Origin: Streptomyces pluripotens
GTDB taxonomy: Bacteria > Actinomycetota > Actinomycetes > Streptomycetales > Streptomycetaceae
Length of the DNA stretch: 64,000 nucleotides
Direction: 5' to 3'
Assembly (NCBI RefSeq): GCF_000802245.2
Contig: NZ_CP021080.1
Location: forward strand, 2,852,001-2,916,000
The notes under the pieces are model-generated. The model was given only the letters and a program-made list of their open reading frames with translations, was not told the DNA's origin and ran no database searches. The first letter of the stretch is position 1. Every line of letters begins with the position of its first letter. The position numbers and the translations under genes were made by a program. Shown one piece after another: positions 23,739-48,357 of the stretch.

Positions 23739-23778
23739 GATAGAGAGTCGATAGCGGCGGCGGTTCGGGGGGATAGCA
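23739..23778 (+). promoter_or_regulatory. In-phase direct repeats, candidate SARP operator
   Basis: GATAG occurs at 23739, 23750 and 23772, i.e. at 11- and 22-bp spacing, on one face of the helix. SARP activators bind direct heptamer repeats spaced by 11 bp overlapping the -35 region. The repeats lie about 70-105 bp before the first gene of the long operon, and the cluster encodes a SARP (46519-48357). No clear -10 was identified. Confidence 0.45.
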
Positions 23779-23844
23779 GGGGGCGACACAGTGGTTCCCG
23801 CCAAAGCGGCCGAGCCAGCCCGCCCACCGAATCGTGAGGACTTG

Positions 23845-24807
23845 ATGATGACCGAAACCCAGCCCCGACCGACACCGAGGGGGGTGACGCCCTCCGATGT
23901 GGCCGTACTCAACGCGGTCGTCAAGCGGTTCACCAACGCCAAGGGCGAGGAGTTCACCGCCGTCAACGGGCTGGACCTGCGGATCCGGCGCGGTGAGGTC
24001 CTGGCATTCCTCGGGCCGAACGGTGCGGGCAAGACGACGACCATCGACATGCTGCTGGGCCTGACCCGGCCGGACTCGGGAGACGTGACACTGTTCGGGC
24101 AGGCGCCCCGGCAGGCGGTGCGCGCCGGGCAGGTGGCCGCCGTGTTGCAGTCGGGTGGGCTGCTGCCGGACCTGACCGTCGAAGCCACTGTCCGCATGCT
24201 GGGCTCGCTGCACCCTGGCGCCGACCCCGAAACCGTGATGGGCAGGGCCGGGATCACCCGGCTGCGGGACCGCCGGGTCTCCGAGTGCTCCGGCGGCGAA
24301 CAGCAACGGCTGCGGTTCGCCGTGGCGCTGCTGTCGAACCCGGAGTTCCTGGTGCTCGACGAGCCGACCGCCGGCATGGACGTGGCGGCTCGGCGCGACT
24401 TCTGGGCCACCGTCCGCGAGGACACCCAGCACGGTATGACGGTCATGTTCGCGACGCACTACATGGAGGAGGCCGACCAGTTCGCCGACCGGGTACTCAT
24501 GATCGACGAGGGGCGCGTGGTCGCCGACGGCTCCGCCTCCTCGATCCGCGCCCGGATCAGCGGTCGTACGGTCTCCGCCCTGATCGCCCCGCAGGACGCC
24601 ACCGCGGTGGCCGCCTCCCCGGGGGTCCGCGCCTGTGTCGCCCGCGGCGAGCGCTACTACTTCGACTGCACCGATTCCGACGCCCTGCTGCGGCTCCTGG
24701 TCACCCGGACCTCCGCCACCGAGATCGAAGTCGCCCCCCGAAGCCTCGAAGAGGCCTTCATGGCCATCACGAACCAAGGCCGTAGCGCCCAGGAAGGCCC
24801 GCGATGA
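23845..24807 (+). CDS. ABC transporter ATP-binding protein (drug-export type)
   Basis: A 320-aa ATPase of the DrrA/daunorubicin-resistance group. Walker A is GPNGAGKTT, the signature CSGGEQQRLRFA, Walker B FLVLDEPT and the switch His FATHYMEEAD, with a C-terminal regulatory domain after residue 230. Of the two adjacent ATGs, 23845 follows GTGAGGA at good spacing. It is the first gene of the biosynthetic operon and overlaps the permease by 4 bp. It probably exports the product or confers self-resistance. Confidence 0.92.
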   Translation: MMTETQPRPTPRGVTPSDVAVLNAVVKRFTNAKGEEFTAVNGLDLRIRRGEVLAFLGPNGAGKTTTIDMLLGLTRPDSGDVTLFGQAPRQAVRAGQVAAVLQSGGLLPDLTVEATVRMLGSLHPGADPETVMGRAGITRLRDRRVSECSGGEQQRLRFAVALLSNPEFLVLDEPTAGMDVAARRDFWATVREDTQHGMTVMFATHYMEEADQFADRVLMIDEGRVVADGSASSIRARISGRTVSALIAPQDATAVAASPGVRACVARGERYYFDCTDSDALLRLLVTRTSATEIEVAPRSLEEAFMAITNQGRSAQEGPR

Positions 24808-25601
24808 GCACCCTGACCGCACCGACCGACCGCCCTCACTCCTCGTCCTCCTTCAGCGGGGTGAACCCCACCTTCCTCCGCTACGAGCTGCGTCGGCGCT
24901 TCAACCGCCAGACCACGATCTTCACCCTCCTGCTTCCGGCTGTCCTCTACCTCGCGCTGTTCCGCACCGCCCCGTCCCACGGCACGCTGCCGCACGGCAA
25001 CTTCGCCGCCTGGATGATGATCGGCCTGGCGGTGTACGGCGCGGCGATGGCCGCGACCAGTGCGTCCGCCACCATCTCGGTGGAGAAGTCGGTGGGCTGG
25101 ATGCGCACGATCGCGCTGAGTCCGCTCGCCCCGCCCGGATACCTCCTGGTCAAGGTGGTCTGCTCGGTGGTGATGGCCGCCGTGCCGGTGGCCATCGTCG
25201 GCGTGCTCGGCTGGCTCACCGGTGCGCAGGCAGACACCAAGGTCTGGGTGACCTCGCTCCTGGTCGCCTGGCTCGGGGCCGCCGTCTTCGCCGCACTCGG
25301 CATCCTGCTGGGCCTGGCCCTCAAGCCCGACGTCGTGTTGCACATGCCGGGCCTGACCATGACCGCGCTGGCCTTCCTCGGCAACCTGTTCATCCCGCTC
25401 AGCGGCACCATGTTGGAGATCTCGCGGTACACCCCCATGTACGGCGTCTCGACACTCGCCCGCTACGCCCTCACCGACGGCTACAGCTTCAGTGGTGAGC
25501 ACTCCAGCCTGCTCGGCGCCGTCGTCAACATCGTCGCCTGGTTCGCGGGCTTCTCCTTCGCGGCGATCCGCCGCTTCACGAAGAGCACCGGTCGCCAGTA
25601 G
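24804..25601 (+). CDS. ABC-2 type transporter permease
   Basis: A 265-aa membrane protein with six hydrophobic segments and the ABC-2 family pattern (ISVEKSVGWMRTIALSPLAPPGYLLVK before helix 3; FLGNLFIPLSGTMLEISRYTPMYG near the end). It is coupled to the ATPase by an ATGA overlap. It would form the export channel for the cluster product. Confidence 0.9.
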   Translation: MSTLTAPTDRPHSSSSFSGVNPTFLRYELRRRFNRQTTIFTLLLPAVLYLALFRTAPSHGTLPHGNFAAWMMIGLAVYGAAMAATSASATISVEKSVGWMRTIALSPLAPPGYLLVKVVCSVVMAAVPVAIVGVLGWLTGAQADTKVWVTSLLVAWLGAAVFAALGILLGLALKPDVVLHMPGLTMTALAFLGNLFIPLSGTMLEISRYTPMYGVSTLARYALTDGYSFSGEHSSLLGAVVNIVAWFAGFSFAAIRRFTKSTGRQ

Positions 25602-25684: not shown

Positions 25685-26635
25685 ATGTTCGCAATCATGG
25701 CACCGGGTCAAGGGTCCCAGACTCCCGGCATGCTGGCCGGCTGGCTGCGCGACCCGGTCCACGCCGAGCGCGTCCAGGCCTGGTCCGAGGCGGCGGACTG
25801 CGACCTCGCCCACTTGGGCACCAAGGCCTCGGCCGCGGAGATCGCCCGAACCGAGAACACCCAGCCCCTCCTGGTCGCCCAGGGCCTGCTGGCGCACCAG
25901 GCGCTGGCCACGGCGGTGGCGGAGGGCGCCGCAGTGGCGGTCGGCCACTCGGTCGGCGAACTCACCGCCGCCGCATTCGCCGGAGTCCTCACGCCCACCG
26001 ACGCGGTGCGACTCGCCGCGGTGCGCGGCCGGGCGATGGCCGCCGCCTGCGCCGAGGCTCCCACCTCGATGGCGGCCGTGGTCGGCGGTGACGAGCCGGC
26101 GGTGCTCGCCCGGATCGCCGAACACGGCCTTACCGCTGCCACGTTCAACGGGCCCGGCCAGATCGTTGCCGCCGGCCTCACCGAGGACCTCCAGCGGCTC
26201 GCCGCTGCCCCGCCTCCCTCGGCGACGGTGAAGCCGCTGACGGTCGCGGGCGCTTTCCACACCGCATACATGGAATCCGCACGGCAGGCCGTCGCTGCAG
26301 CCGCCGCCGGGATCGACTTCGCCCCACCGCGCACGGTCCTGCTCTCCAACGCCGACGGCGAGGCGCTCGCCACACCCGAGGCGGTCCGGCAGCGACTCGT
26401 CGACCAGGTGGTGCGCCCGGTCCGCTGGGACCTGTGCCTGCGCGGCCTGGCCCGATTCGCCCCCGGGGTGACGGTGTCCCTGCCGCCCGCCAAGACACTG
26501 GCCAACATCGTCCGACGCCAGTACCCGGAACTCTCCGTCGTCCCGGTCGGCTCGGCCCGGGACATCAGCAAGGCGCTCGCCCGCATCGAGGCGACCGAGT
26601 CCGCCGAGGGGGGACCCATCCGTGCAGGTGTCTGA
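25685..26635 (+). CDS. Malonyl-CoA:ACP transacylase
   Basis: A 316-aa FabD-like acyltransferase. The oxyanion motif APGQGSQTPGM opens the protein, GHSVGELTAAA holds the nucleophile Ser, and GAFHTAYM the catalytic His. It loads malonyl units onto ACP. A dedicated MAT is unusual in aromatic type II clusters (which borrow FabD) but is found in polyene-type reducing type II systems. The ATG at 25685 follows AAAGGGGG; a start at 25649 would add a poor N-terminus. The 3' end overlaps the ligase gene by 14 bp. Confidence 0.92.
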   Translation: MFAIMAPGQGSQTPGMLAGWLRDPVHAERVQAWSEAADCDLAHLGTKASAAEIARTENTQPLLVAQGLLAHQALATAVAEGAAVAVGHSVGELTAAAFAGVLTPTDAVRLAAVRGRAMAAACAEAPTSMAAVVGGDEPAVLARIAEHGLTAATFNGPGQIVAAGLTEDLQRLAAAPPPSATVKPLTVAGAFHTAYMESARQAVAAAAAGIDFAPPRTVLLSNADGEALATPEAVRQRLVDQVVRPVRWDLCLRGLARFAPGVTVSLPPAKTLANIVRRQYPELSVVPVGSARDISKALARIEATESAEGGPIRAGV

Positions 26636-28268
26636 CCTCTTCGAGCGCAGCCGCGCCCCGCGCGCCGCCCACCCCGCCCTGATCGACTCCGAAGGCACCC
26701 TCAGCTACGCCGAACTCGGCACCGCCGTCGACCGGGCGGCCGGCTGGCTGCGCACCCGGGGCATCACCCCCGGAGAACGTGTCGTCTACACCGGCGGCAA
26801 CCACCGTGCCTTCCTCGCCCTGTTCTACGCCACCCTCCGCATCGGTGCCGTTTTCGTCCCGGTACACCCGGGACTGACGGACGTGCAGGTGTGCCATGTC
26901 GTCGACGACTGCTCGGCCGCCCTGGCGATCGCCTCGCCCGGCGCGGGAGAACGGGCCGGAGACACCGTGACGGTGCAGCAGGCCTGGGAGGAGATCCAAA
27001 GCACCTCCGCCGACGGCTTCACCGCCGACGTGTCCGCCGACAACGTGGCCATGCTGATCTACACCTCGGGCACCACCGGCCGCCCGAAGGGCGTGGTCTG
27101 CCCGCACCGTCCGATGGTCGCGGCGGCGGAGTCGATCAACTCCCGTCTCGGATACGGCCCCGACGACGTGGTCCTGTGCCGTCTGCCGCTCTCCTTCGAC
27201 TACGGGCTCTACCAGGCCCTGATGTGCCACATGACCGGCGGCACCCTGGTGCTCGCCGAACGCGGCGGCGACGTCAGCCTGTTGCGCGTCATCGAACGCC
27301 ACGGCGTGACGATCGTCCCGCTGATGCCCGCCCTGGCCCAGATGCTCACCCTGCTGCAGAGCAAGCAGCGCCGACCGGTGGCGGTGCGCCTGTTCACCAA
27401 CACCGGCGCACGGCCGGGACGGTCGGTCATGGCCCAACTCCTGGAGGTTTTCCCGGGATCGGCCTTCGCCTCGATGTACGGCATGACCGAGTGCAAGCGC
27501 GTCTCGATCCTCGACCCCGCCGAGTACGCCGCCCACCCCGACTCCGTCGGCCGGCCCATCCCCGGCGACCAGGTCCGCATCGTCGATGGCGAGGGAGTCG
27601 AGCTCGGCCCGCGCCGGACCGGAGAGATCGTCGTCTGGGGCAGCACCGTGATGGCCGGCTACTGGCGGACCCCGATGGAGGCACAGCAACGCTACGTCCG
27701 CAGAGCCGACGGCTCACTGGAACTGCACACCGGCGACCAGGGCTTCCTCGACGAGGACGGGCGGCTCTACTTCGTCGGCCGCGATGACGACATGGTCAAG
27801 CGGAACGGGATCCGGCTCAGCCTGACCGAGATCGAGGACGCCGCCGAGCAGATCCCGGGTGTGACCGCGGCGGTGGCCTTCGCACCGGACTCCGAGGGTG
27901 GCCACCTGCAGTTGGCCGTGCAGTCCCCGCTCGCGCCGGAGGAGGTGCGCACTCAGCTGGCCTCGCACCTGGACCGGAACCGGATGCCCGATGTGATCAC
28001 CCGGATCGAGGCCGTACCGCTGACCGGGAACGGCAAGCCGGACCGCAAGGCGGCCTGGCTGCTGGTCCGCGCGCCCGACGCACCGAGCGCCGCCGACGCG
28101 CAGCCGGAGCAGCCGGAGCAGCCGGAGCAGCCGGAGCAGCCGGAGCAGCCGGAGCAGCCGGAGCAGCCGGAGCAGCCGGAGCAGCCGGAGCAGCCGGAAG
28201 AACAAAACACACCGACGGCACCGACGACACAGACGAGGACCAGCGCCCATGACTCAGTCGCAGTTTGA
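26622..28268 (+). CDS. AMP-forming acyl/aminoacyl ligase with a Gln-Pro-Glu repeat tail
   Basis: A 548-aa class I adenylating enzyme. A3 is YTSGTTGRPKG, the A4 region LPLSFDYGLYQALM, A5 YGMTECKRVS, A7 HTGDQGFLDEDG, A8 RDDDMVKRNGIRLSL and A10 TGNGKPDRKA with the catalytic Lys. The Asp in SFDYG could contact an amino group, but the same sequence occurs in fatty-acyl CoA ligases, so the substrate is open. After residue 493 come eleven Gln-Pro-Glu repeats, then a short Thr-rich end. The GTG at 26622 follows GAGGGGGGAC. It overlaps ACP1 by 20 bp, implying that it loads ACP1. Confidence 0.88.
   Translation: MQVSDLFERSRAPRAAHPALIDSEGTLSYAELGTAVDRAAGWLRTRGITPGERVVYTGGNHRAFLALFYATLRIGAVFVPVHPGLTDVQVCHVVDDCSAALAIASPGAGERAGDTVTVQQAWEEIQSTSADGFTADVSADNVAMLIYTSGTTGRPKGVVCPHRPMVAAAESINSRLGYGPDDVVLCRLPLSFDYGLYQALMCHMTGGTLVLAERGGDVSLLRVIERHGVTIVPLMPALAQMLTLLQSKQRRPVAVRLFTNTGARPGRSVMAQLLEVFPGSAFASMYGMTECKRVSILDPAEYAAHPDSVGRPIPGDQVRIVDGEGVELGPRRTGEIVVWGSTVMAGYWRTPMEAQQRYVRRADGSLELHTGDQGFLDEDGRLYFVGRDDDMVKRNGIRLSLTEIEDAAEQIPGVTAAVAFAPDSEGGHLQLAVQSPLAPEEVRTQLASHLDRNRMPDVITRIEAVPLTGNGKPDRKAAWLLVRAPDAPSAADAQPEQPEQPEQPEQPEQPEQPEQPEQPEQPEQPEEQNTPTAPTTQTRTSAHDSVAV
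28101..28199 (+). repeat. Eleven 9-bp tandem units coding (Gln-Pro-Glu)11
   Basis: CAGCCGGAG is repeated eleven times in frame, with only the final base of the last unit changed, near the 3' end of the ligase gene. The near-perfect DNA identity suggests recent slippage expansion. The encoded tail would be an extended, acidic linker. On the opposite strand it creates an artefactual leucine-rich frame. Confidence 0.95.
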
Positions 28269-28503
28269 CCAGCTCGTCGAGCAGATCTGCTCGGTCAAGG
28301 TCACCGACGCCGAGACCCCACTCGTGGATCTCGGTGTGGACTCGCTCCACACCGTCGCCCTGGTGATGGCCGTGGAGGAACGGTACGGCGTCGAGATCGA
28401 CCCCGAGGTGCTGGCCGACCCCAAACTCACCACCTCGGCGCTCCTGTGGCACTCCGTGCAGGAAAAGCTGTCCGGTGACCTGCCGGCGGACTCCGCGAGA
28501 TGA
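28249..28503 (+). CDS. Acyl carrier protein 1
   Basis: An 84-aa carrier protein with the phosphopantetheine attachment motif LGVDSLHTV (Ser34). It is embedded between the AMP ligase (20-bp overlap) and the aminotransferase (4-bp overlap). That placement suggests it carries the ligase-activated starter or amino acid rather than the elongating polyketide, for which ACP2 at 34869 is the better candidate. Confidence 0.93.
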   Translation: MTQSQFDQLVEQICSVKVTDAETPLVDLGVDSLHTVALVMAVEERYGVEIDPEVLADPKLTTSALLWHSVQEKLSGDLPADSAR

Positions 28504-29687
28504 CCGCCATGTGGACCGACACCCGACCCGCGGTGGAGATGCCGCAACTGTTCGAGCGAGGCGGTGACCTGATCTCCTTCGCCGGAGGACTGCCCGACCT
28601 GGACGTCCTTCCGCTGGAGACGATCTCCGCCCAGCTCTCCCGACTGGTACGGCTCGGCGGAAAGCTTGCCTTCCAGTACAGCACCCCGCATGTCGCCAAG
28701 GCCCTGGTCCCGGCGATCACCGACCTGATGGCCCGGGAGGGCGCAGCCACCACGGCCGAGAACCTGGTTCCGACCAACGGCTCCCAGATGGGCCTCATGG
28801 CGGTGGCCCTCGGTCTGGCGGCCCCCGGCCAGACCGTCCTGGTCCAGACCCCTGCCTACCCGGGGGCTGCAGCGGCCTTCCGTACCGCCGGCCTCGACCT
28901 GTGCTCCATACCGGAGGACGCCGACGGCCTCGCCCCGGCCGGCCTGCGCGAGACGGTGCTCCGGCTGCGCGCCGAGGGCCGCACCGCCCGTCTCCTCTAC
29001 TGCAACCCGACCTTCCAGAACCCAACCGGCACGACCCTCTCCCTCGCACGCCGCGAGGAACTCCTCACCGTGGCACGGGAGCTGGACCTCCTGGTCGTCG
29101 AGGACAACCCGTACGGTCTGCTCGGCTTCGACGGGCAGACCGCCGACACCCTCCAGGGCCTCGCCCCGGAGCACGTGGTCTACCTCGGGACCTTCTCCAA
29201 GGTGTTCGCCCCGGGCCTGCGCTGCGGCTGGATCGCGGCGCCGCAGGAGGTGGCGCACGCCCTGCGCCGTACCACCGAGGTGATGGCGCTGTCGCCGTCC
29301 GCGCTGGCCCAGGCCTCGCTGGCCGCCTTCCACGCCCGCAACGGCTGGACGGAGCTGATCGACGGCTACCGCGCCAGCTACCGGGAGCGGTCGGCGCTGA
29401 TGGCCGACGCGCTGGAAGCCGAACTCGGTACCCAGGGCCCGTGGACCTGGGAACGGCCGGAGGGCGGCTTCTACATCTGGCTGCGCCACCGTGAGGGAGT
29501 GGACACCGGCACCTTCGTCGCGGCGGCGGCCGAGCAGGGGGTCTCCTTCGTGCCCGGCAGCCACTTCGGACTCGGCGGGGAGCACGCGGACGCGCTGCGG
29601 CTGTGCTTCAGCCATGTGCCCAAGAAGCGGATTGCCGAGGGGATCTCCCGGCTGGCGTCCGCGTTCCAGCAGGGGGCGGCAACATGA
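28500..29687 (+). CDS. PLP-dependent aminotransferase, fold type I (class I/II)
   Basis: A 395-aa enzyme of the 2-aminoadipate/LysN-MocR-like group. Substrate/PLP motifs are FAGGLPD near the N-terminus, TNGSQMGL, CNPTFQNPTGTTLS, VVEDNPYG (Asp to PLP N1) and GTFSKVFAPGLRCGW with the Schiff-base Lys. It would interconvert an amino acid and a 2-oxoacid or aldehyde, perhaps to make a starter or release-step amine. It is coupled to ACP1 before and the LanB-like gene after by ATGA overlaps, so it is a core enzyme. Confidence 0.9.
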   Translation: MTAMWTDTRPAVEMPQLFERGGDLISFAGGLPDLDVLPLETISAQLSRLVRLGGKLAFQYSTPHVAKALVPAITDLMAREGAATTAENLVPTNGSQMGLMAVALGLAAPGQTVLVQTPAYPGAAAAFRTAGLDLCSIPEDADGLAPAGLRETVLRLRAEGRTARLLYCNPTFQNPTGTTLSLARREELLTVARELDLLVVEDNPYGLLGFDGQTADTLQGLAPEHVVYLGTFSKVFAPGLRCGWIAAPQEVAHALRRTTEVMALSPSALAQASLAAFHARNGWTELIDGYRASYRERSALMADALEAELGTQGPWTWERPEGGFYIWLRHREGVDTGTFVAAAAEQGVSFVPGSHFGLGGEHADALRLCFSHVPKKRIAEGISRLASAFQQGAAT

Positions 29688-31990
29688 CCGGCACCCTCGA
29701 CACCACCCGGGCCCTCGACTGGACGGCCTTCGGACCGTCGTACCGCCTGGGCGACTCCCCCTGGACGGTGTGGGGCGTCGGGCTGCTGCGCGGGGCCGGA
29801 TTCCCGGTCTCCGGACTCGGCCTGATCGGCGGACCGCGGGCGGCACGGGCCGCGGCACGGGTGGGAACCGACGGGCAGGACGCCTTCAGCGCCGCCTACC
29901 GGGCCGACACCGCCGCCGAGTCCGAGCGGCTGGCCGAGCTGGCCGCCGACGACCGGTTCCGCCGGGCGATCGCCTGGCAGAACCGCACCGTCTACCGCCT
30001 CCTCGACTCGGTCGCGGCGGGGAAGGGGCCGGAGTCCAAACGCCGTCGGCGCGAGCGCACCCTCGCCATGTACTGGCTGCGCTACTGTGCCAAGGCCGAG
30101 ACCATCGGCTTCTTCGGCCCGGCGGCCTGGATCTCCGTCGGCCAGGGGCAGCGGGCCGTCGACTTCGAGGCCGGCCCGGCGCTCACCGCCGCCGACCGGA
30201 CCTCCCTGGAACGCTGGACCGTCGCCGCCCTCGCCGACTGGATGGCCGAGCAGCCGGGCGCCCGCTGGTGGTTCCCACCGATGCTCCGCCCCGATGTGCA
30301 CCTCGACGGTGACCGACTCGTCATGCAGGGCGGCCGTACCGTGCGGCTGCGCGAGGACGACGCCGAAGTGCTGCGGCTGGCCGACGGCGACCGCAGTGCC
30401 GAGGCCATCACTCAGGCCACCGGCTGGGACCCGGCCACGGCACGGGAGCGGGTGGAGAAGGCCCTGAACCGGCTGCTCCGACAGCGGGTTCTGACCTGGG
30501 ACCCCAACATCCCCGTGGACGTACGTGCCGAGGAGGTCCTGCGCCGGCGCGTGACCGCGATCGGCGACCCGGAGCTGTTCGTCCGCTTCGACACCGTCCT
30601 CACCGAAGTGGACCGGCTGCGCGCGGACATCGACCGCGCGGGCAGCGCCGAGGAGTTGGTCGGCGCGCTGGACCGGCTCGACGAATTCTTCGTCCGTACG
30701 ACCGGTCAGGCGGCCTCCCGCGAGGAAGGCAAGGCCTACGCCGGGCGCACCCTCTGCTACCAGGACTCCCTCCGGGACTGCCGGATGGACCTGGGCCGCG
30801 ACTTCCTCGACGGCATCGGCCGGCCACTGGCCCTGGTCGCGGACGCGGCCGACTGGTTCGGCAACCGGCTCGCCGAACTGGTGGAGGCCGAGGTAGCCGG
30901 GTTCGTCCGCAAGGCCGCCGCCCGCCGGAGGGACGTCACGCTCGCCGACGTATGGACGCAGGTGCTCGCCCTGTTCTGGGGTGCGAACGCCACCCCGGTG
31001 CACACCGCGACCCGCGAACTCGGGGAGAAGTGGCGCGAAGTGCTGGACGTCGGCACCGAGCGCCGGGTCCGCATCCGGGTCCAGGACATCGAGGACCGGG
31101 CCCGCGCGACCTTCGCCACCGGCCCGGTCCGCTCGCCCCATCTCGCCGTGCACAGCCCCGACCTCCAGGTGGTGGCGCCATCCGTGGCGGCGATCAACGC
31201 CGGTCGGTACACCGCCGTCCTCGGTGAGCTGCACGCCTGCCTGGCCACGTTGGACCTGCCGTTCCTCGACTGGACCACTGATCAGGGGTCCTTGAGGGAC
31301 AAGGTCAACGCGGCGATCGGTGCCCGGCGGCTGGTGCCGCTGTTGCCGGTCGAATGGAAGCGCAACAGCGGCCGTATGGTCCCCGCGCCGATCGGCGCCG
31401 GCGACCGGCTGCTCGGCTTCACCCGGGCACCGTACGACGACCGCACCCGCGTGGACCCGGCGGCGGCGGTCCGGCTTTCCGAGACGGACGGCACGGTCAC
31501 CGCGACCACACCCGACGGGCGCTCCTGGAGCGTCCCCGAGCTGCTCGCAGTGCCGGTGTCGATCATCGCCGCGGACGCCTTCAAGGTCGGCCTCGACCGG
31601 GCGCACGCCCCGCGCGTGACCCTCGACGACCTGGTGCTGTTCCGGGAGACCTGGCGGCTGCCGGTCGCCTCGGTGGCCCTGCCGGACAAGGCGGACCGGG
31701 AGTGCGACTACCTGGCCGTACGCCGGTGGGTGGCCGAGCACGCCCTGCCCGACCTGCTCTTCGTCAAGTTCCCCGAGGAGACGAAGCCCTCCCTGGTCGA
31801 CTTCACCAGCCCCACGCTGGCGCTGTCCTTCGCCAACCTCGTCCGCACCGCGCGCCGGCTCGACCCCGACGCGGTCGTCGCCCTCAGCGAGCCGCTGCCG
31901 GCGCCGGACGACTCCTGGCTGCCGGACGGCGACGGCGAGCGCTACGTCAGCGAACTGCGGCTCCAGATCAGCAGAAAGGTGCCGGAATGA
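29684..31990 (+). CDS. Stand-alone lantibiotic-dehydratase-type (LanB N-domain) protein
   Basis: A 768-aa protein matching the tRNA-dependent glutamylation half of LanB. Supporting segments include FGPSYRLGDSPWTVWGVGLLRGAGFP at the N-terminus, FRRAIAWQNRTVY, RRRERTLAMYWLRYCAKAETIGFFGP (a LanB hallmark) and the closing RYVSELRLQI. The elimination (SpaB_C) domain of full-length LanBs is missing. Known relatives either glutamylate Ser/Thr of a precursor peptide with Glu-tRNA or, as PEARLs, add an amino acid to a peptide C-terminus. No obvious large RiPP precursor is present, so the acceptor could be Dap, a carrier-bound intermediate or the 36-aa peptide at 46366. It starts at an ATGA overlap at 29684. 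Confidence 0.8.
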   Translation: MTGTLDTTRALDWTAFGPSYRLGDSPWTVWGVGLLRGAGFPVSGLGLIGGPRAARAAARVGTDGQDAFSAAYRADTAAESERLAELAADDRFRRAIAWQNRTVYRLLDSVAAGKGPESKRRRRERTLAMYWLRYCAKAETIGFFGPAAWISVGQGQRAVDFEAGPALTAADRTSLERWTVAALADWMAEQPGARWWFPPMLRPDVHLDGDRLVMQGGRTVRLREDDAEVLRLADGDRSAEAITQATGWDPATARERVEKALNRLLRQRVLTWDPNIPVDVRAEEVLRRRVTAIGDPELFVRFDTVLTEVDRLRADIDRAGSAEELVGALDRLDEFFVRTTGQAASREEGKAYAGRTLCYQDSLRDCRMDLGRDFLDGIGRPLALVADAADWFGNRLAELVEAEVAGFVRKAAARRRDVTLADVWTQVLALFWGANATPVHTATRELGEKWREVLDVGTERRVRIRVQDIEDRARATFATGPVRSPHLAVHSPDLQVVAPSVAAINAGRYTAVLGELHACLATLDLPFLDWTTDQGSLRDKVNAAIGARRLVPLLPVEWKRNSGRMVPAPIGAGDRLLGFTRAPYDDRTRVDPAAAVRLSETDGTVTATTPDGRSWSVPELLAVPVSIIAADAFKVGLDRAHAPRVTLDDLVLFRETWRLPVASVALPDKADRECDYLAVRRWVAEHALPDLLFVKFPEETKPSLVDFTSPTLALSFANLVRTARRLDPDAVVALSEPLPAPDDSWLPDGDGERYVSELRLQISRKVPE

Positions 31991-33048
31991 CCGTCCTCGC
32001 CTCGGACGGCGCGGCCCTGCGGAACCGCGCCGTCCGCTCCCGGGACCCCGACATCATCGCGACGATCGGCGGAACCCCGCTCGTCGCCCTCGACCGACTC
32101 TTCCCACCCGCCCGGTTCCAGGTCTACGCCAAGTGCGAGCGCTTCAACCCCGGCGGCTCCGTCAAGGACCGCGCCGCCCGGTCGATGATCGAGCACGCCA
32201 TCGAGACCGGGAAGCTCCTCCCCGGTGTGTCCACAGTGGTGGAGTCCTCCTCCGGCAACCTCGGCATCGCCCTCGCCCAGCTGTGCAACTTCCACCAGCT
32301 CCGCCTGATCTGCGTGGTCGACCCCCGCACCACCGCACAGAACGTTGCCATCATGCGGGCCTACGGAGCGCGGGTCGAGGTGGTCGACCGGGACCCGGCC
32401 ACCGGCGAGTACCTACCGGCCCGGATCGCCCGGGTGCAGGAGCTGCTGGACAGCGTCCCGGACGCCTACTGGCCCAACCAGTACGCCAACGAGCACAACG
32501 CCCGCGCCCACCACCACACCATGCGGGAGATCTGCGAGGCCCTGCCCGAGGCCCCCGACTACCTCTTCCTCGCGGCCGGCACGGTCGGCACCCTGCGCGG
32601 CTGTGCCGAGTACATCCAGGGCCACGGCCTGGACACCCGGGTGGTCGCGGTGGACGCGGTGAACAGCGCGATCTTCGGTCCGCCCGAGCCCTGGGAGCTG
32701 GCGCACCAACGCACGATCCCCGGGCACGGGGCGGCGGTAGTGCCCCCGCTACTGCGGCCGGGCCTCGCGGACCGGGTCGTCAAGGTCACCGACGCCGACT
32801 GCGTCCGCGGCTGTCGCCGACTCCTGGCCCGGGAGTCCATCCTCGCCGGCGGTTCCTCCGGCGCCGTCGTGTCCGCCCTGCTCGGCGCCGCCCCGGGGAT
32901 CGAACAGGGCGCGACCTGCGTCGCCGTCCTTCCCGACGGCGGTGACCGCTACCTCGACACCATCTACTGCGACGCCTGGGTGGAGACCCACTTCCCGGAC
33001 ATCGACACCCCCGACGACGCCATCGAACAAGAAAGGAACGAGCCGTGA
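31987..33048 (+). CDS. SbnA-like PLP enzyme (Dap pathway synthase)
   Basis: A 353-aa cysteine-synthase-fold enzyme. The Schiff-base Lys is in NPGGSVKDRAA, the substrate loop is SSSGNLGIALA, and GTVGTLRG and AGGSSGAVV bind the cofactor phosphate and ring region. With an SbnB-like partner directly downstream, the family reaction is O-phospho-L-serine plus L-glutamate to N-(1-amino-1-carboxyethyl)-glutamate, the first step to L-2,3-diaminopropionate. It is coupled at both ends by 4-bp overlaps. Confidence 0.9.
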   Translation: MTVLASDGAALRNRAVRSRDPDIIATIGGTPLVALDRLFPPARFQVYAKCERFNPGGSVKDRAARSMIEHAIETGKLLPGVSTVVESSSGNLGIALAQLCNFHQLRLICVVDPRTTAQNVAIMRAYGARVEVVDRDPATGEYLPARIARVQELLDSVPDAYWPNQYANEHNARAHHHTMREICEALPEAPDYLFLAAGTVGTLRGCAEYIQGHGLDTRVVAVDAVNSAIFGPPEPWELAHQRTIPGHGAAVVPPLLRPGLADRVVKVTDADCVRGCRRLLARESILAGGSSGAVVSALLGAAPGIEQGATCVAVLPDGGDRYLDTIYCDAWVETHFPDIDTPDDAIEQERNEP

Positions 33049-41166: not shown

Positions 41167-41843
41167 TGGGTGGGGCCACGGGGCTCGTGACGTGGCACCG
41201 GGGCCAGGAGGGGCCGGCACGGCCCGTGCGGCACGCGGGTGGCGAGGTGTCCATCGACTGCCTCGTCACCAAGCATCCCCACCTTCCCCGGGATCGGATG
41301 GGCCACCGCCTCAACGGCTCCGGGCGCTCCCTCATCATCGAGGCGGTCCGGCGGGTCCACGGCGTCGAGGTCGTCCCGCGCGATCTCGCCCGGGACGCCC
41401 ACAAGCGCTGGAGCATCCCGTCGCACGGTCTCGCCGTCTCCGTCGCGCACTGCCAGGACCACAGCGCCGTCGTCCTGTCGACCGGCCCGCAGGTCGGCGT
41501 GGACCTGCAGGACGAGCGCGACCGCCCTGCGGCCATGCGCTGGCTCGGCGACCTGCTCGGTCGTCAGGAGCCTGCTGTGATCCGGGACTTCGCGGAGTGC
41601 GAGGCCCTGATCAAGGCCTCCTGGGTCACCAAGGAGACCTTCACCGGTGTCCGGCTGCCCGACTGGCAGCCGGGCTGGCGACTCACCAACGTCCCCACAT
41701 TCCGGGTGTGTTCCACCGTCGTCGGCCCCGGCATGCACCTCGCCCTGGCGGCCGAGGAGGCCGCCCGGGTCCGCTGGTGGTGGCGCCGCAGCCCCACCGA
41801 GCCCGCCCTTCGTACCCCCGTCCCGCCCCTGGAGCCGGCATGA
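41166..41843 (+). CDS. 4'-phosphopantetheinyl transferase (Sfp/AcpT-like)
   Basis: A 225-aa protein. HGLAVSVAHCQDHSAVVL and VGVDLQDERDRP correspond to the GVDxE Mg-binding motif, with Gln in place of the usual Glu at that position. ALIKASWVTKETFTG corresponds to the WxxKEA(F/Y) motif. It should attach phosphopantetheine to ACP1 and ACP2. The ATG at 41166 overlaps the KS stop; a GTG at 41163 is an alternative. The changed second Mg ligand lowers certainty about full activity. Confidence 0.78.
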   Translation: MGGATGLVTWHRGQEGPARPVRHAGGEVSIDCLVTKHPHLPRDRMGHRLNGSGRSLIIEAVRRVHGVEVVPRDLARDAHKRWSIPSHGLAVSVAHCQDHSAVVLSTGPQVGVDLQDERDRPAAMRWLGDLLGRQEPAVIRDFAECEALIKASWVTKETFTGVRLPDWQPGWRLTNVPTFRVCSTVVGPGMHLALAAEEAARVRWWWRRSPTEPALRTPVPPLEPA

Positions 41844-43003
41844 CAGACACAGAGACAGCGAGCACCACACGGCCCTACACCCGCCGTCTCTCGCAGATCG
41901 AACGCGGATACCTGAACGCGGCGGCCACCGGTACTCCGCAGCTGATACAGATGGTCGTCGAGGGCGAGGGCCGTATCGAGGTCGAGGCGCTGCGGGAGGC
42001 CGTGCGGGTCGCGACCCTCGCCTCCCCGGGCCTCGCGGTGCGACGGCGCGCGGCCTCCTGGCGAGCCGACGGCCCGATCCCGCCGGTCGTCGAGCTCCCT
42101 CCCCATACGGACTCCGATGCCCCCTTCTTCCACCGCGACCTCGATGTCCGTACCGGGCCGGTGTGCGAAGTCGGCCTGGTGGACGGCCCGTCGACCCGGC
42201 TCGTCGTCCGGGCCAGCCACATTGTCACCGACGGCCGAGGGCTGAGGCAGTGGATCGCGGATGTGTTCCGGGTGCTGCGCGGGGAGGATCCGGTGGGCGC
42301 CGACTCTGTGGTCGATGACACCCACTTCCGTGCCGCGGCGGGCGAGGTGCCGCCCGCCGAGCCACCTGCCCGGCTGACGGGCCTGCCCGCGATCCTGGGC
42401 CAGGGCCCCGCCGACGGCACCCCGCTGTGGATCCGGCGCCGGGTGCGGGCCGCTCCGTCCGCGGTCACCGCCCGGGTGGCCGCCGCCCTCTCCCGGCACC
42501 TGGCCGCCGATGCGGGCCGGCTGATCATCCCGGTGGACCTGCGCCGCCATGACCGGACGATCCGCTCCACCGCCAACCTCACCTCCCAGCTGGTATTGGA
42601 CATCCGGCGTGAGGACAACTGGCGACGGCTGCACGGCCAGGTCGTCCGCGCCCTGCTCGGCAAGCGCGAGATCGCCTCGCTCGGCAGGGACTTCCTGCGC
42701 TCCAACCCCTTCGCCAACTCCCTGCGGGAGGCCCGGGAACTGGACGGGACCCGCTTCCCGTGCACGGCGATCATCACTGACCACGGCCGGGTCGACACCG
42801 CTGAACTGAGCACCGGCGGCTTCACCGCCACCGCGTTCTACACGCTGCCGATGCTCGTGCCGTACGCCGAGATGTTCCTGAGCACCTGCCAGATCGGTGA
42901 CGAGACCGAGCTGACGCTCTCCTGCCGCGAACGCCCGGGCGCGCGCGAGGCAGGCGAGGCGGTGCTCGACGACGTCGAGCGCGCGCTCACCGACGCGCTC
43001 TGA
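41840..43003 (+). CDS. Stand-alone condensation-domain acyltransferase
   Basis: A 387-aa protein of the CoA-dependent acyltransferase/NRPS condensation fold. RASHIVTDGRGLRQW holds the HxxxDG catalytic motif (the preceding His of HHxxxDG is Ser), and IIPVDLRRHDRTIRSTANLTSQLVL resembles the latch/DFGWG region position. It may form the amide or ester that joins the polyketide from ACP2 with an amino acid on ACP1 or a free amine. ATGA-coupled to the PPTase gene. Confidence 0.8.
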   Translation: MTDTETASTTRPYTRRLSQIERGYLNAAATGTPQLIQMVVEGEGRIEVEALREAVRVATLASPGLAVRRRAASWRADGPIPPVVELPPHTDSDAPFFHRDLDVRTGPVCEVGLVDGPSTRLVVRASHIVTDGRGLRQWIADVFRVLRGEDPVGADSVVDDTHFRAAAGEVPPAEPPARLTGLPAILGQGPADGTPLWIRRRVRAAPSAVTARVAAALSRHLAADAGRLIIPVDLRRHDRTIRSTANLTSQLVLDIRREDNWRRLHGQVVRALLGKREIASLGRDFLRSNPFANSLREARELDGTRFPCTAIITDHGRVDTAELSTGGFTATAFYTLPMLVPYAEMFLSTCQIGDETELTLSCRERPGAREAGEAVLDDVERALTDAL

Positions 43004-43117: not shown

Positions 43118-44563
43118 ATGTCCCTGACCGAACAGACCGAAGAGGACGCCCCGAGTCCGCCGTCGGGGCCCTCCGGCCCCACCCTCATTACCCTCGCCGC
43201 GGCCATCACCGGCGGCTTCCTCGCCCTGCTCGACACCACGATCGTCAACGTGTCCCTGCACGACACGACGGTCCGCTTCGGCGACATCGGCCATGTCCAG
43301 TGGGTGGTGACCACCTATCTGATCGCCCTGGCGGCGACGATGCCGGCCACCGGCTGGCTGGCCACCCGGTTCGGTGTGCGGCGTGTCTTCGCCGGTGCGA
43401 CCGTGCTGTTCGCGCTGGGCTCGGCGAGCTGTGCGCTCAGCCAGACCCTGCCGGAACTGATCACCGCGCGGGGCGTGTCCGGCGCGGCGGCCGGTGTCCT
43501 CACGCCCGTCTCCACGATCCTGCTGACCCGTGGCGTGCCCCGTGAACAGTTGGGCCGCGTGCAGGGCCTGAACGGCACTGTCATGTTGATCAGCCCGCTC
43601 CTCGGCCCCACCGTCGGCGGCCTGCTGGTCCAGGCGGGCGGCTGGTCCGCCGTGTACGTCGTCAACATCCCGCTGTGTGCCGCCCTGCTCGCGGTCACCT
43701 TGTGGAGGGTGCCCAAGGACACCCCGGCCGGCGGGAACGCGAAACCGCTGGACGTGGTGGGCCTGCTGTCCTCCGGTGCCTGCACGGTGTGCATGGTGCT
43801 GGCCATCCACGAGTTCTCCGGCCATGCCCTGGAGGGCACGGCGGCCTTCCTGGTCCCGCTGGCCCTCGCCGTGGCGAGCGGTGCCGTGTTCGTCGTGCGG
43901 GAGCTGCGTGCGAGGTTCCCGCTGCTGGACGTACGCCTGTTCGCGAACCGGGTCTACCGCACGGCCGCCATCAACATCTTCTGCCTGGGCTTCGTCCTCT
44001 ACTCACCGATGATGCTGATCCCGCTGTACTTCGAGACCGCGCGCGGTGAGAGCGCCGTGACCACGGGCCTGTTGATGTCCACGGGCGGTCTCGGCGTGGT
44101 CTCGGCCGCCTGGCTGTGCCAGGTCCTGATGAAGCGCATCGGCGGGGGCGGCACCGTCCTGGCGGGCATCGTCCTGACGATCCTCGCGACGGCGCCGCTG
44201 ACCACGCTGTCCGGCCACTCGTCGTACGTCATGCTGTGCGCCAGTCTGGTGGTGCGGGGCCTGGGCACCGGTCTGACGATCGTGCCGGCGATGACCCGGG
44301 CCTTCCAGTCGATCCGGCCCGAGTCCATCCCGGACGCCTCCTCGCAGCTGAACCTGATCCAGCGGATCGGCGGCGCGTTGGCCCTGGCCGTGGTGACGGT
44401 GTTCCTGGAGCAGGCGGCGCGCCGGCTCCACGGGCTGGTGCCGGGCGCCTTCGCCCACTCCTTCGCTTGGCTCCTCGGTATCTACGCCGTCACCCTGCTG
44501 CCTGCTCTGGCGCTTCTCCTCGCCGACCGCAGGGAGGCCCGCCTGAGCGGAGCGGAAGCGTAG
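43118..44563 (+). CDS. MFS multidrug efflux transporter (DHA2, 14-helix)
   Basis: A 481-aa membrane protein with 14 predicted hydrophobic segments. Motif D1/A of the DHA2 family is present (LLDTTIVNVSLHDTTVRF, ATRFGVRRVFAGATVLFALGS), as is the antiporter motif C region (LISPLLGPTVGGLLVQAGGW). It probably exports the cluster product. It is the last gene of the rightward run, 114 bp after the condensation protein, with CTAAGGAC as ribosome site. Confidence 0.92.
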   Translation: MSLTEQTEEDAPSPPSGPSGPTLITLAAAITGGFLALLDTTIVNVSLHDTTVRFGDIGHVQWVVTTYLIALAATMPATGWLATRFGVRRVFAGATVLFALGSASCALSQTLPELITARGVSGAAAGVLTPVSTILLTRGVPREQLGRVQGLNGTVMLISPLLGPTVGGLLVQAGGWSAVYVVNIPLCAALLAVTLWRVPKDTPAGGNAKPLDVVGLLSSGACTVCMVLAIHEFSGHALEGTAAFLVPLALAVASGAVFVVRELRARFPLLDVRLFANRVYRTAAINIFCLGFVLYSPMMLIPLYFETARGESAVTTGLLMSTGGLGVVSAAWLCQVLMKRIGGGGTVLAGIVLTILATAPLTTLSGHSSYVMLCASLVVRGLGTGLTIVPAMTRAFQSIRPESIPDASSQLNLIQRIGGALALAVVTVFLEQAARRLHGLVPGAFAHSFAWLLGIYAVTLLPALALLLADRREARLSGAEA

Positions 44564-44584: not shown

Positions 44585-45580
44585 TCAGCGCGTGGCGGGG
44601 AGCCAGCCGTCCTGGACGGCATGCACCCCCGCCTCGAAGCGGCTGCGGGCGTCCAGGCGTTCCATCAGGGTCGCCGCGATGCGTCGGGCCGTGCGTGGGG
44701 AGACACCGAGGCGTTTGGCGATGGACTCGTCGGTGGAGCCCTGGGCGAGCATCTTGAGGACGGCGCGCTCCTGCGGCGGCATCCCGTTCGCCTCGTGCTT
44801 CGGGGCGGCCCCCAGCGGTGTCGCCGTACTCCACACGCTCTCGAACAGGGCGCACAGGGCGACGACCGTACCGGCGCCGCTCAGCACCACCCCGCCGGCC
44901 CGCGCATCGTCGGTGTCGATGGGCAGCACCGCCCGGCTCCGGTCGAAGATGATCATCCGGATCGGCAGGTCGGGCGCGGTACGCACCTGCCTGTCACGCG
45001 CGTGCAGCCAACGGGCGTGGTCCCGCGTGGGCGGGTGGTTGCGCATGCTGTCCAGGTAGATGGTCCGCGTGCGGACACCCCGGTTGAGCAGCGCGGGGTT
45101 CGGCGCCCAGCTGGTCGCGAGATCGTCGGGCAGGTGCGCGCCGCCCGGCGCGAAGGTGGCGACCTCGTACTGCGCGAACTGGGCGAGCTCCGCCAGCCGC
45201 TCCCGGATCGCCTCCAGGTCGGTCAGCTGTTCTGATTCGCTCTCCTTGGCGACCGTCCGCAGTGACGAACACTCGGCGATCAGTTGGGCCGCGGCGGCCC
45301 TGGACGCCTCCACGCGCATCTGTTGTGCCACCAGTTCTGCCTGCTGGCGGGCCAGCAGGATCTTCATCGCGGCCTCCGGGCCGATCGCCCGGAACCCGAT
45401 TCCCTCGCGGGCCGACGGCTGGATCAGAGCGAGTTCACTGAGCCGGTCCAGACCGGACCGGACCCTTTCCTCAGCCAGGCCCAGCCGGGCCGCCAGACAT
45501 GCGACGCCATCCCGGGGATTGGTCAGCATCCCCCGGTAGATGGCTTCAGCCTCGGAGTCGAGGCCCAAAACGTCCAACAT
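44585..45580 (-). CDS. LuxR-type transcriptional regulator with TrmB-like N-terminal domain
   Basis: A 331-aa regulator. Residues 1-70 form a winged-helix TrmB-like domain (LDSEAEAIYRGMLTNPRDGV, LAARLGLAEERVRSGLDRLSEL). A helical linker follows (VEASRAAAAQLIAE), then a PLD-like/unknown middle and a C-terminal LuxR helix-turn-helix (PPQERAVLKMLAQGSTDESIAKRLGVS, ARRIAATLMERLDARSR). It is convergent with the MFS gene (21 bp between stops). It probably controls the cluster. No TTA codon was seen. Confidence 0.88.
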   Translation of the reverse strand: MLDVLGLDSEAEAIYRGMLTNPRDGVACLAARLGLAEERVRSGLDRLSELALIQPSAREGIGFRAIGPEAAMKILLARQQAELVAQQMRVEASRAAAAQLIAECSSLRTVAKESESEQLTDLEAIRERLAELAQFAQYEVATFAPGGAHLPDDLATSWAPNPALLNRGVRTRTIYLDSMRNHPPTRDHARWLHARDRQVRTAPDLPIRMIIFDRSRAVLPIDTDDARAGGVVLSGAGTVVALCALFESVWSTATPLGAAPKHEANGMPPQERAVLKMLAQGSTDESIAKRLGVSPRTARRIAATLMERLDARSRFEAGVHAVQDGWLPATR

Positions 45581-46365: not shown

Positions 46366-46476
46366 ATGGGCACCCGTTTCTCCGCGAGCCCCACCAGGAA
46401 CGCCACGCACACCGCGGCGACCGGCCTGGAGGCCCATGCCGACGAGATCCTCGCCGACATAACCTGGGGCAGCTGA
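46366..46476 (+). CDS. 36-aa peptide ORF upstream of the SARP gene
   Basis: The ATG at 46366 follows a good ribosome site (GAGAAGGAAA) and is closed by TGA at 46474-46476, 42 bp before the SARP start. The peptide has a Ser/Thr/Asn-rich first half (TRFSASPTRNATHTAAT) and an acidic amphipathic second half (LEAHADEILADI) ending in Thr-Trp-Gly-Ser. The Leu-Glu-rich segment before a short polar C-terminus recalls RiPP leader/core layout. It could serve as scaffold for the LanB-like enzyme, or be a leader/signal peptide for the SARP gene. Real translation is plausible but unproven. Confidence 0.5.
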   Translation: MGTRFSASPTRNATHTAATGLEAHADEILADITWGS

Positions 46477-46518
46477 GAAGCCCCGGTGACCGGTGCCGAA
46501 CCAAGGTGAGCGTGTCAG

Positions 46519-48357
46519 GTGGCAGAAGAAGACATGGAATTCCTGGTCCTGGGTTCTCTGGAAACGCGTGAATCGGGCGAACCGATCCCCGTCCGGGGCA
46601 TGCGCCAGCAGCGGCTCCTCGCCCTGCTGCTCCTCAACGCCAATCGGGTCGTCCCGGTGGACGTGCTCGTGGACGAACTGTGGCAGGACCCCCCTTCCTC
46701 GGCCCGCCCGCAGATCCACAACGCGATCCGCGACCTGCGTCGCATCCTCCCCGCCACCGGCGGCGCCAGCCTGGTCACGGTCAACGTCGGCTACCGGCTC
46801 GTCGTACGCGAGGACGCCATCGACGCCCACCGCTTCACCAGCCGCGTCCGCGCCGCCAAGGTGGCGGAGCGGGAGGGCCGGTGCGGCGAGGCCATCCGGC
46901 TGCTCCAGGCAGCGGTGGACCTCTGGCGGGGCGACGCCTTCGCCGGCATCCAGTGTCCGGCGATCACCAGCGCTGCCGTCAAACTCAACGAGCAGCGACT
47001 GACCGCCATCGAGGACCTCATGGCGCTCCGTCTGCGGATCGGCGAGACCAGTTCCCTGGTCGGCGAATTGCACGCACTGATCGCCGAATACCCGCTGCGC
47101 GACTCCCTCCGCGCCAGCCTGATGATCGCGCTGTGCCGCAGCGGGCGACAGGCCGACGCCCTCGCGGTCTACAACGAGGGCCGCCGCTTCCTGGTGGACG
47201 CGCTCGGCCTCGAACCGAGCCCCCAACTGCGTGCGTTGCACGCCGCGATCCTCGCCAACTCGCCGAACGTGCACGGCGCCGGCACCTCCGACCTCGCGAC
47301 CAGCCGTTCCCAGTCCCCGCAGGACCGCGCCCCGGCGGCACCCGGCGCCCCCCGCAACTACCTGCCGTACGACCTCGTGGACTTCACGGGCCGCGCCGCC
47401 GAGGTGGACGCCGTGCTGGCCGTGACCGGAGGAGAGCAGAGCCGTTCACCGGTCATGGTCGTGATCGACGGCATGGGCGGCGTCGGCAAGACCACACTCG
47501 CCGTACACCTCGCCCACCGTGTCACCCCGCACTACCCGGACGGCCAGTACTTCATCAACCTGCACGGGTTCAGCGCCACCCGGTCACCGATGCCGACCGA
47601 ACGCGCCCTCGGCCTGCTCCTCCAGGCAAACGGACTCGCCCCCAAGGAGATCCCGGACACCCTGGAGGAACGCAGCGCCCTGTGGCGTTCGCGCCTGGCG
47701 GGTCGGCGCTGCCTGATCGTCCTCGATGACGCCGCCGACAGCGCTCACGTCACTCCCCTGCTGCCGGGCACCGGCGGCTCGCTGGTGCTGGTCACCAGCC
47801 GCCGCAAGCTCACCGCACTGGACGGCGCACAGCCGCTCTGCCTCGACGTCCTGCCCCATGGCGACGCCGTCACCCTCTTCACCCGGATCGTCGGCAAGCC
47901 GCGCGCCGCCCACGACCCCGCGCGGACCACCGAAGCGGTCGAGCTGTGCGGCCGACTCCCCCTCGCCCTGCGCATCGCCGCGACCCGGCTGCGCGACCGT
48001 CCGTCATGGGCGGTGGCCGACCTCGTCGAACGCCTCGCCGACACAGCACAGCGCTCCCGCTGCCTACGCACCGCCGACCGCGACCTGATGGCTGCACTGC
48101 GGGTGTCGTACAACCAACTCACCCAATCTGAAAGGAAGTTCAGCCGCCTCATCAGCCTTCACCCGTCCTCCTCGTACGACGTTCCGCACGCCGCCGCCAT
48201 CACGGGGCTGCCCGCAGCCGACGTGGAGCACCACTTCGACGTGCTGGTCGAGAACAACCTCATCCGGGAGGAGTCGCCGGCCCGCTACTCCTTCCACCGC
48301 CTGGTCCGGGACTGCACACGGGAGTTGCTGGCGGAGGACGCCCCGGTGGCGGTGTGA
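46519..48357 (+). CDS. SARP-family activator with NB-ARC domain
   Basis: A 612-aa regulator of the AfsR/SARP type. An OmpR-like winged helix (EFLVLGSLETRESG to YRLVVRED) covers about residues 5-95. The bacterial transcriptional activation domain (IDAHRFTSRVRAAK to LGLEPSPQLRALH) covers about 100-250. An NB-ARC ATPase follows, with Walker A GMGGVGKTT near residue 317 and Walker B CLIVLDDA near 398. It lacks the C-terminal TPR array of AfsR. The GTG at 46519 follows AAGGTGAG; an ATG at 46534 is an alternative. It is the likely pathway activator acting at the repeats near 23739-23778. Confidence 0.93.
   Translation: MAEEDMEFLVLGSLETRESGEPIPVRGMRQQRLLALLLLNANRVVPVDVLVDELWQDPPSSARPQIHNAIRDLRRILPATGGASLVTVNVGYRLVVREDAIDAHRFTSRVRAAKVAEREGRCGEAIRLLQAAVDLWRGDAFAGIQCPAITSAAVKLNEQRLTAIEDLMALRLRIGETSSLVGELHALIAEYPLRDSLRASLMIALCRSGRQADALAVYNEGRRFLVDALGLEPSPQLRALHAAILANSPNVHGAGTSDLATSRSQSPQDRAPAAPGAPRNYLPYDLVDFTGRAAEVDAVLAVTGGEQSRSPVMVVIDGMGGVGKTTLAVHLAHRVTPHYPDGQYFINLHGFSATRSPMPTERALGLLLQANGLAPKEIPDTLEERSALWRSRLAGRRCLIVLDDAADSAHVTPLLPGTGGSLVLVTSRRKLTALDGAQPLCLDVLPHGDAVTLFTRIVGKPRAAHDPARTTEAVELCGRLPLALRIAATRLRDRPSWAVADLVERLADTAQRSRCLRTADRDLMAALRVSYNQLTQSERKFSRLISLHPSSSYDVPHAAAITGLPAADVEHHFDVLVENNLIREESPARYSFHRLVRDCTRELLAEDAPVAV

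Follow-up and report, generated by a model that had tools for sequence, protein, structure and literature searches.

Among the described pathways closest to the locus reported here are the reducing type II polyketide synthases (PKSs) of the polyene type, such as that for ishigamide, which is N-polyenoyl-β-alanine, the starter pathway of vicenistatin, and the threopeptin (sna) pathway of Stackebrandtia nassauensis. The last of these includes SnaE, which reportedly forms an amide at the free carboxylate of a non-ribosomal intermediate in the manner of a peptide aminoacyl-tRNA ligase (PEARL) (PMC11212132). The same source counts about two thousand non-ribosomal peptide synthetase (NRPS) or PKS clusters with LanB-annotated proteins, of which SnaE is the one with a role shown in the literature covered, and in a 2026 review (PMC12945691) the words ‘polyketide’, ‘ACP’ and ‘polyene’ do not occur. 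Here we analyse a 64,000-nucleotide stretch of the Streptomyces pluripotens chromosome (the window; G000:C1:2852001-2916000 of a 7.35-Mb single-contig genome, GC roughly 70%) and describe an operon in which a LanB-like protein of predicted PEARL type stands together with a VinN-like ligase, a reducing type II PKS and diaminopropionate (Dap) genes. As an initial annotation of the window had suspected, no description of a pathway with this gene set was found in the literature searched, a search that did not cover MIBiG.

Using GC content by codon position, inspection of starts and family searches to call genes, we found 18 tightly packed plus-strand genes between window positions 23845 and 44563. 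Curated Pfam cut-offs are exceeded for a malonyl-type acyltransferase (MAT), an AMP-binding ligase (LIG), two PP-binding acyl carrier proteins (ACP1 and ACP2), an Aminotran_1_2 aminotransferase (AMT), a Lant_dehydr_N (LanB-like) protein, an SDR-type ketoreductase (KR) and a FabA-like dehydratase (DH), as well as for GNAT and GCV_T proteins, two ketosynthase (KS)-fold halves, an ABC pair (ABC_A and ABC_B) and an MFS protein. Every gene named in the initial annotation is an intact open reading frame (ORF) in the order it had given, the active-site motifs examined across the operon are intact, and a scan of 30 ORFs within and near the cluster showed no thioesterase, enoylreductase or modular PKS or NRPS, as it had also stated. 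Its count of six genes overlapping by 4 bp holds as to the overlap and not the number: with assigned starts there are eight such junctions (ABC_A/ABC_B, ACP1/AMT, AMT/LanB, LanB/SbnA, SbnA/SbnB, SbnB/KR, KS-CLF/PPT and PPT/COND, where KS-CLF is the fused ketosynthase and chain length factor, PPT the phosphopantetheinyl transferase-like protein and COND the condensation-like protein). Because of these eight overlaps, and of gaps of at most 114 bp between ABC_B and the MFS gene (83, 46, 1, 96, 37 and 114 bp), the operon genes are very probably co-transcribed.

The LanB-like protein (29684–31990) matches PF04738, while PF14028, the glutamate elimination domain, was matched neither in it nor in any of the 30 scanned ORFs. 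Its AlphaFold model (predicted local distance difference test (pLDDT) score of 88) matches the fold of MibB, TbtB, MadB, NisB and GodF. To place it, we aligned 36 sequences, 15 from this type of cluster and 21 relatives at 28–34% identity, and mapped by alignment, order and spacing the ATP- and tRNA-site residues given for BhaB-Trp in two sources (PMC11962472, PMC11117183). D493, E515, R654, F693, E757, R759 and R133 are invariant throughout and Y130 is nearly so, corresponding to BhaB-Trp D558, E575, R715, F755, E813, R815, R208 and Y205, respectively.

As a control, 12 further LanB loci were fetched, which, after one without a usable hit (L082) and a partial 391-residue hit (L079) were set aside, yielded 14 proteins from ten loci. 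Nine of these distant proteins keep D493 and the E-x-R motif. Five control LanB-type proteins (L076, L077, L078, L080 and L081) have F or H in place of D493, R or K in place of E515 and T, A or I in place of R759, and all five keep the tRNA-site and adenine residues; the tRNA-site Tyr and Arg (Y130 and R133), present both here and in the controls, are therefore not discriminating. Published LanBs have Tyr and Leu at the D493 and R759 sites (PMC11117183), so the controls agree with them in missing the Asp and Arg and not in the exact substitute. Two of the five adjoin PF14028 and two a nitroreductase, neighbours that glutamylating LanBs would be expected to have; the single neighbour scanned for L078 gave no match. 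The LanB-type enzyme of the initial annotation is thereby sharpened to one that very likely belongs to the amide-forming, PEARL-type class, and the tRNA-dependent chemistry it had raised as a possibility gains support from the same residues. We rejected a role as a Ser/Thr dehydratase on the ATP-site residues relative to the controls, with no PF14028 nearby.

PEARL residues would also suit an enzyme whose substrate is a ribosomal carrier peptide from a gene outside the operon, as in the pearlin-type synthesis of 3-thiaglutamate. A weak PqqD- or RRE-like segment points the same way, with profile positions 209–273 matching 5sxy (E value of 1.6e-4) and Pfam PqqD reaching an E value of 0.02, below cut-off. 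The profile that gave the 5sxy match also included the relatives at other loci, and for two PEARLs the part of the substrate that binds the RRE is reported to be dispensable (PMC11962472). No small ORF for a ribosomal carrier peptide fits between the operon genes, in gaps of 1–114 bp, a peptide gene elsewhere not having been searched for, and we regard this alternative as decidedly improbable.

Sister LanB proteins at 31–37% identity lie beside matches to NRPS-like adenylation domains in five of the seven neighbourhoods read (G377, G300, G340, G311 and G099). Where sister loci show weak SbnA-like matches, SbnB is not matched. PEARL-like proteins also occur as tandem pairs beside adenylation-domain matches in the Streptomyces loci L061, L065 and L066, at the first of which a gene resembling ornithine carbamoyltransferase and an aminotransferase III are also present. 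On Streptomyces plasmids, proteins like these mostly carry the annotation lantibiotic dehydratase. The PEARL-like proteins of L073, which have D and E-x-R, lie beside a radical SAM gene and an arginase-family gene, a layout that L074 resembles by ORF length only. Within the S. pluripotens genome itself, a second Lant_dehydr_N match (C1:7230856-7231023; 26.9 bits, below cut-off) lies roughly 35 kb from the glutamate mutase E gene (C1:7265847-7267109).

The adenylating enzyme LIG (26622–28268), which adjoins the stand-alone carrier protein ACP1 (28249–28503; PF00550, DSL serine in 18/18 orthologs), has 3wvn and 3wv4 as its closest solved structures (366 and 293 bits). Both entries are recorded as VinN (PMC11253843), an identity confirmed because all five published reference letters match in our alignment. 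At an offset of 16, the VinN pocket residues D230, F231, S299, K330 and R331 given there become D, Y, T, K and R, so that three of five are kept (the equivalents of D230, K330 and R331) and two are conservatively replaced. Among orthologs, the motifs FDYG and FTNTG recur in 18/18 ligases and TECKR in 17/18. The K330/R331 pair lies within a shortened loop that makes room for 3-methylaspartate, whose carboxylate we take it to contact in VinN. Judged by these residues, the ligase is likely to be of the VinN-like specificity class for aspartate-type β-amino acids and probably does not load Dap, which lacks the carboxylate in question.

VinN loads 3-methylaspartate, and aspartate at low efficiency, while FlvN takes aspartate (PMC11284099). 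A glutamate mutase is encoded in two of seven cluster-bearing genomes, one of them S. pluripotens, whose copy lies well away from the cluster at 7.27 Mb; aspartate therefore fits better than 3-methylaspartate, which becomes less likely as the general substrate. At locus L064 (G025:C3), the neighbours of a PEARL-like gene encode glutamate mutase subunits, a carrier protein, a SnoaL-like protein and an AMP ligase; we dropped the idea that this locus shares the logic of the cluster, as its ligase is without the VinN motif.

That VinN is the best match of the ligase also favours a different use of ACP1, in that enzymes of the VinN type supply the starter units of PKSs that make macrolactams (PMC11284099). 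The aspartate-type residue on ACP1 would then be the starter that KS-CLF extends to an ω-amino polyene, possibly a lactam, with the PEARL-type enzyme capping the starter’s free carboxylate. However, among the operon ORFs we recognized neither a decarboxylase like VinO nor a second ligase like VinM, nor an aminopeptidase, and the PKS genes recur elsewhere without such a ligase, as described below. We consider this route rather unlikely.

The PKS genes bear out the reducing type II PKS without enoylreductase proposed at the outset. KS-CLF (38851–41166) is a natural fusion whose KS half resembles FabF and type II KSs and keeps Cys/His/His in 17/17 orthologs, and whose CLF half reads NGG, with no Cys, at the KS-Cys position, again in 17/17. 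With it are the FabG-like KR (34070–34822; PF13561/PF00106, NYAASK in 19/19), the polyketide carrier protein ACP2 (34869–35159; PF00550, MDSL in 19/19), the FabA/FabZ-like DH (35161–35664; PF07977, HYPDH in 19/19) and MAT (25685–26635; PF00698, GHSVGE in 18/18). For the KS half, the top match is the PDB pair 9s5h, and the entry 6kxd, presumably the ishigamide KS, scores 207 bits, below many FabF entries. Close KS-CLF orthologs are confined, among 394 genomes of the class, to S. pluripotens and G375. A further 16 genomes of the class sample have one-frame KS-CLF fusions at 37–44% identity, for some of which the match covers part of the length, and on this ground we rejected uniqueness of the fusion itself.

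Reading 20 kb around ten of these distant fusion loci, we found a MAT-like match at all ten and, in five (L113, L115, L118, L119 and L121), the genes KR-ACP-DH-GcvT-KS/CLF in the same order; the remaining five have no GcvT-like match and extra KS genes. By tblastn over the same 20 kb, the five collinear loci carry no ligase of the VinN-like kind except for a distant AMP-ligase match of 25% at L113, so this cassette probably can start without one, contrary to what the starter route supposes. Some neighbours at these loci resemble glycosyltransferase and aminosugar genes by eye.

The recurrence also bears on the GcvT-like protein (37808–38851; PF01571), to which the initial annotation had assigned a one-carbon modification of a polyene attached directly to Dap, a version favoured by the GcvT-family match and by SbnA and SbnB equivalogs above cut-off. 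In the alignment to 1yx2, however, the Asp pair (DD) becomes FA, and it is replaced in 19/19 orthologs, so that both are gone, whichever of them is catalytic. Of the five distant GcvT-like proteins, four still have a single Asp near the site; the L113 and window proteins have none, and the five collinear loci have no SbnA or SbnB matches within 20 kb. We therefore reject the one-carbon role on both residues and distribution (present in 5/10 distant loci) and find the direct attachment to Dap improbable, the ligase pocket retaining the Lys and Arg that in VinN presumably face a carboxylate that Dap lacks. The GcvT-like protein is instead a recurrent partner of fused KS-CLF PKSs.

The Dap supply itself agrees with the initial reading: SbnA (31987–33048) reaches 399 bits against a cut-off of 350 for TIGR03945, and SbnB (33045–34073) 346.5 against 326.9 for TIGR03944. 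Both are named in staphyloferrin B synthesis, and a siderophore or amino-acid effector could in principle be the main output of their chemistry, with the PKS as an accessory. Against this, no siderophore synthetase or iron-uptake gene was recognized in the operon and the KS-CLF gene is strongly constrained, with a ratio of nonsynonymous to synonymous rates (dN/dS) of 0.17–0.20, which leaves a siderophore-type output highly improbable.

Four further genes have less specific signatures. The pyridoxal phosphate-dependent class I/II aminotransferase AMT (28500–29687; PF00155, FSK in 18/18) is closest in the PDB to 1wst, 1x0m, 3aov and 2egy, multi-substrate and 2-aminoadipate aminotransferases, with MppQ (8tn2) ranking lower. 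The GNAT protein (35761–37770; PF00583) is fused to a domain of about 500 residues and its model is weak (mean pLDDT of 65), with GNAT at residues 2–155 and a galactose-mutarotase-like β-sandwich at 254–450; its likeness to phosphinothricin acetyltransferases and mutarotase-like sheets is a lead only, implying no function. Among the 394 class genomes, its C-terminal part is found in S. pluripotens and G375, with one further marginal match of 81 residues (E value of 7e-4) that runs across two stops. PPT (41163–41843) has no Pfam match at E ≤ 10 and is assigned by motifs only (GVDLQD and KETF, each in 6/7). COND (41840–43003) gave one chance-level Pfam hit at E ≤ 10 (0.05, not usable), and it carries HxxxDG in 7/7 and very weakly matches the PvdL C-domain in the PDB (E values of 0.065–0.27).

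Comparison of genome neighbourhoods supports the cluster as a conserved unit. Scanning genome contigs with the LanB-like protein returned 18 distinct loci, of which 17 carry the title Streptomyces or Kitasatospora, the other being titled only Actinobacteria bacterium OV320. The genes from LanB to KS-CLF are collinear in 18/18, for which reason we regard the gene set as more than chance, and MAT, LIG, ACP1 and AMT are collinear in 17/18, L014 ending at a contig boundary. ABC_A is found in 16/18, the remaining two ending at contig boundaries, and PPT in 16/18, undetected in L010 and L014; the 0.8 kb that L010 has past its KS-CLF gene holds neither PPT nor COND. The condensation gene, which in most loci would fall at the end of the sequence or past it, was seen in five of the 18, and PPT, COND and MFS follow KS-CLF in 6/6 relatives for which the sequence was extended. 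Of 392 genomes sampled from the genus, 72 gave a match of some kind and nine reach at least 70% identity (S. pluripotens, G375, G358, G378, G271, G154, G334, G146, where the contig stops short, and G319, with a fragment). G358, G154 and G146 share 100% DNA identity with L006, L009 and L014, respectively, whereas the closest named locus reaches no more than 93% identity for G375, 91% for G378, 82% for G271 and 95% for G334. Leaving out the G319 fragment, the cluster is therefore present in 23 distinct genomes: that of S. pluripotens, the 18 named and four more.

Over the 14 genes tested against L001, L002 and L016, dN/dS is 0.12–0.60, lowest for KR, KS-CLF and DH (0.15–0.23) and spanning 0.12–0.41 for ACP2; dS is rough at this GC content, PPT was compared with two relatives, and the condensation, ABC and MFS genes were left out. 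The pairwise distances between LanB proteins correlate with those between the products of each of 12 other genes (r of 0.79–0.96, with 0/300 permutations reaching the value for each gene), which shows shared history, not function.

The conserved unit runs from ABC_A to MFS (23845–44563), because the window’s flanking genes have no counterpart in the stretches read around the extended relatives, where genomic surroundings vary, and the regulators are kept in half of these at most. The cluster had initially been drawn to 48357, an extent that stands for this core and not for the two regulators beyond it: a LuxR-type protein on the minus strand (44585–45580; PF00196), with one clear ortholog beside the cluster in the six extended relatives, and a SARP-type protein with NB-ARC on the plus strand (46519–48357; PF03704/PF00931), with three. 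The transporter genes at its ends are the ABC ATPase ABC_A (23845–24807; PF00005, 104.5 bits), for which the start may be 23791, 23845 or 23848, the ABC-2 type permease ABC_B (24804–25601; PF01061) and the MFS exporter (43118–44563; PF07690).

Elsewhere in the window, a c-di-AMP riboswitch (16732–16913; RF00379, 62 bits) lies at the start of an SLT-domain ORF (16827–17405), an ordinary arrangement in streptomycetes. Also outside the conserved cluster, a Pyr_redox-type oxidoreductase adjoins a protein with a below-cut-off ATP-grasp match on the minus strand (18605–21138). A run of closely spaced minus-strand ORFs (51984–63439), one of which (51984–53633) matches Proton_antipo_M, suggests an antiporter or NADH-dehydrogenase-like operon.

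Taken together, the operon may encode one biosynthetic unit with two carrier-protein arms. In the polyene arm, MAT, ACP2, KS-CLF, KR and DH, helped by the GcvT-like protein, would assemble malonyl units into a conjugated polyenoyl chain. In the amino-acid arm, the VinN-like ligase would load an aspartate-type amino acid onto ACP1 through its side-chain carboxylate, leaving the amine and the α-carboxylate free. The condensation-like protein could then couple the polyene to the amine, for which an aspartate-like residue is an equally or more likely acceptor than Dap, and the PEARL-type ligase could phosphorylate a free carboxylate with ATP and couple an amino acid from aminoacyl-tRNA. SbnA and SbnB would supply Dap, entering the product at a step that the model does not assign, the aminotransferase and GNAT protein would tailor, and the ABC and MFS proteins would export. 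We put forward this whole, a polyenoyl chain on an aspartate-like residue, extended from aminoacyl-tRNA and combined with Dap, as a tentative model slightly short of an even chance. It is favoured mainly because side-chain loading leaves a free α-carboxylate, the type of substrate reported for the PEARL-like SnaE, a match between ligase and PEARL that is a logical fit and not an observation. The more specific proposal that the enzyme acts on ACP1-bound aspartate and forms the amide on its α-carboxylate, with an ACP in place of the scaffold peptide in a type II PKS pathway, is somewhat doubtful.

Several points weigh against the two-armed model. Substrate, activity and product are all predictions. 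Its PEARL residues were mapped without a PEARL sequence of proven activity for comparison, and E515 is no clean marker, since six of nine further PEARL-like proteins have another residue there (D in five, R in one). One of the 18 ligases has Q at K330, and β-amino acid ligases of this kind are described as feeding a PKS starter rather than an amide acceptor (PMC11284099). The condensation-like protein is assigned by motif, Dap and the aminotransferase have no placed step, and correlated divergence can also arise from shared species history.

Compared with known systems, the cluster shares with cispentacin biosynthesis (AmcF-AmcG, a KS-CYF pair) a discrete KS with an atypical partner, an AMP ligase and an ACP, whereas its proteins score under the curated NCBIfam cut-offs (273 against 325 for AmcF, 36 against 80 for AmcG and 156 against 370 for AmcH), by which we rejected cispentacin-like chemistry. 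The vicenistatin starter pathway (VinN/VinL) has a like β-amino acid ligase with conserved pocket and stand-alone carrier protein, but its decarboxylase, second ligase and modular type I PKS are missing here and glutamate mutase is not general (2/7). Polyene-type reducing type II PKSs of the ishigamide kind likewise combine KS-CLF, KR, DH and ACP with an amide-forming enzyme, and the cluster differs in its fused KS and CLF, its GcvT-like subunit and its PEARL and Dap genes. Loci L113, L115, L118, L119 and L121 have five of its genes in order, between which the window adds the GNAT fusion (after DH and before GcvT), but show no LanB, SbnA, SbnB, ACP1 or condensation match in 20 kb. In the threopeptin pathway, too, a thiotemplate system is accompanied by a LanB-like protein, SnaE, that has neither an elimination domain nor a carrier peptide with it and reportedly attaches an amino acid at a free carboxylate, a likeness drawn from its description. 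The sna pathway is a modular NRPS-PKS ureido pathway, whereas the window cluster joins a discrete reducing type II PKS to a VinN-like ligase and Dap genes. Set beside these systems, the cluster points to the GcvT-like protein as one that repeatedly accompanies KS-CLF fusions and, being small, present in 23 genomes, devoid of modular enzymes and endowed with a plausible free-carboxylate substrate, makes the role of a PEARL-type ligase in polyketide pathways directly testable.

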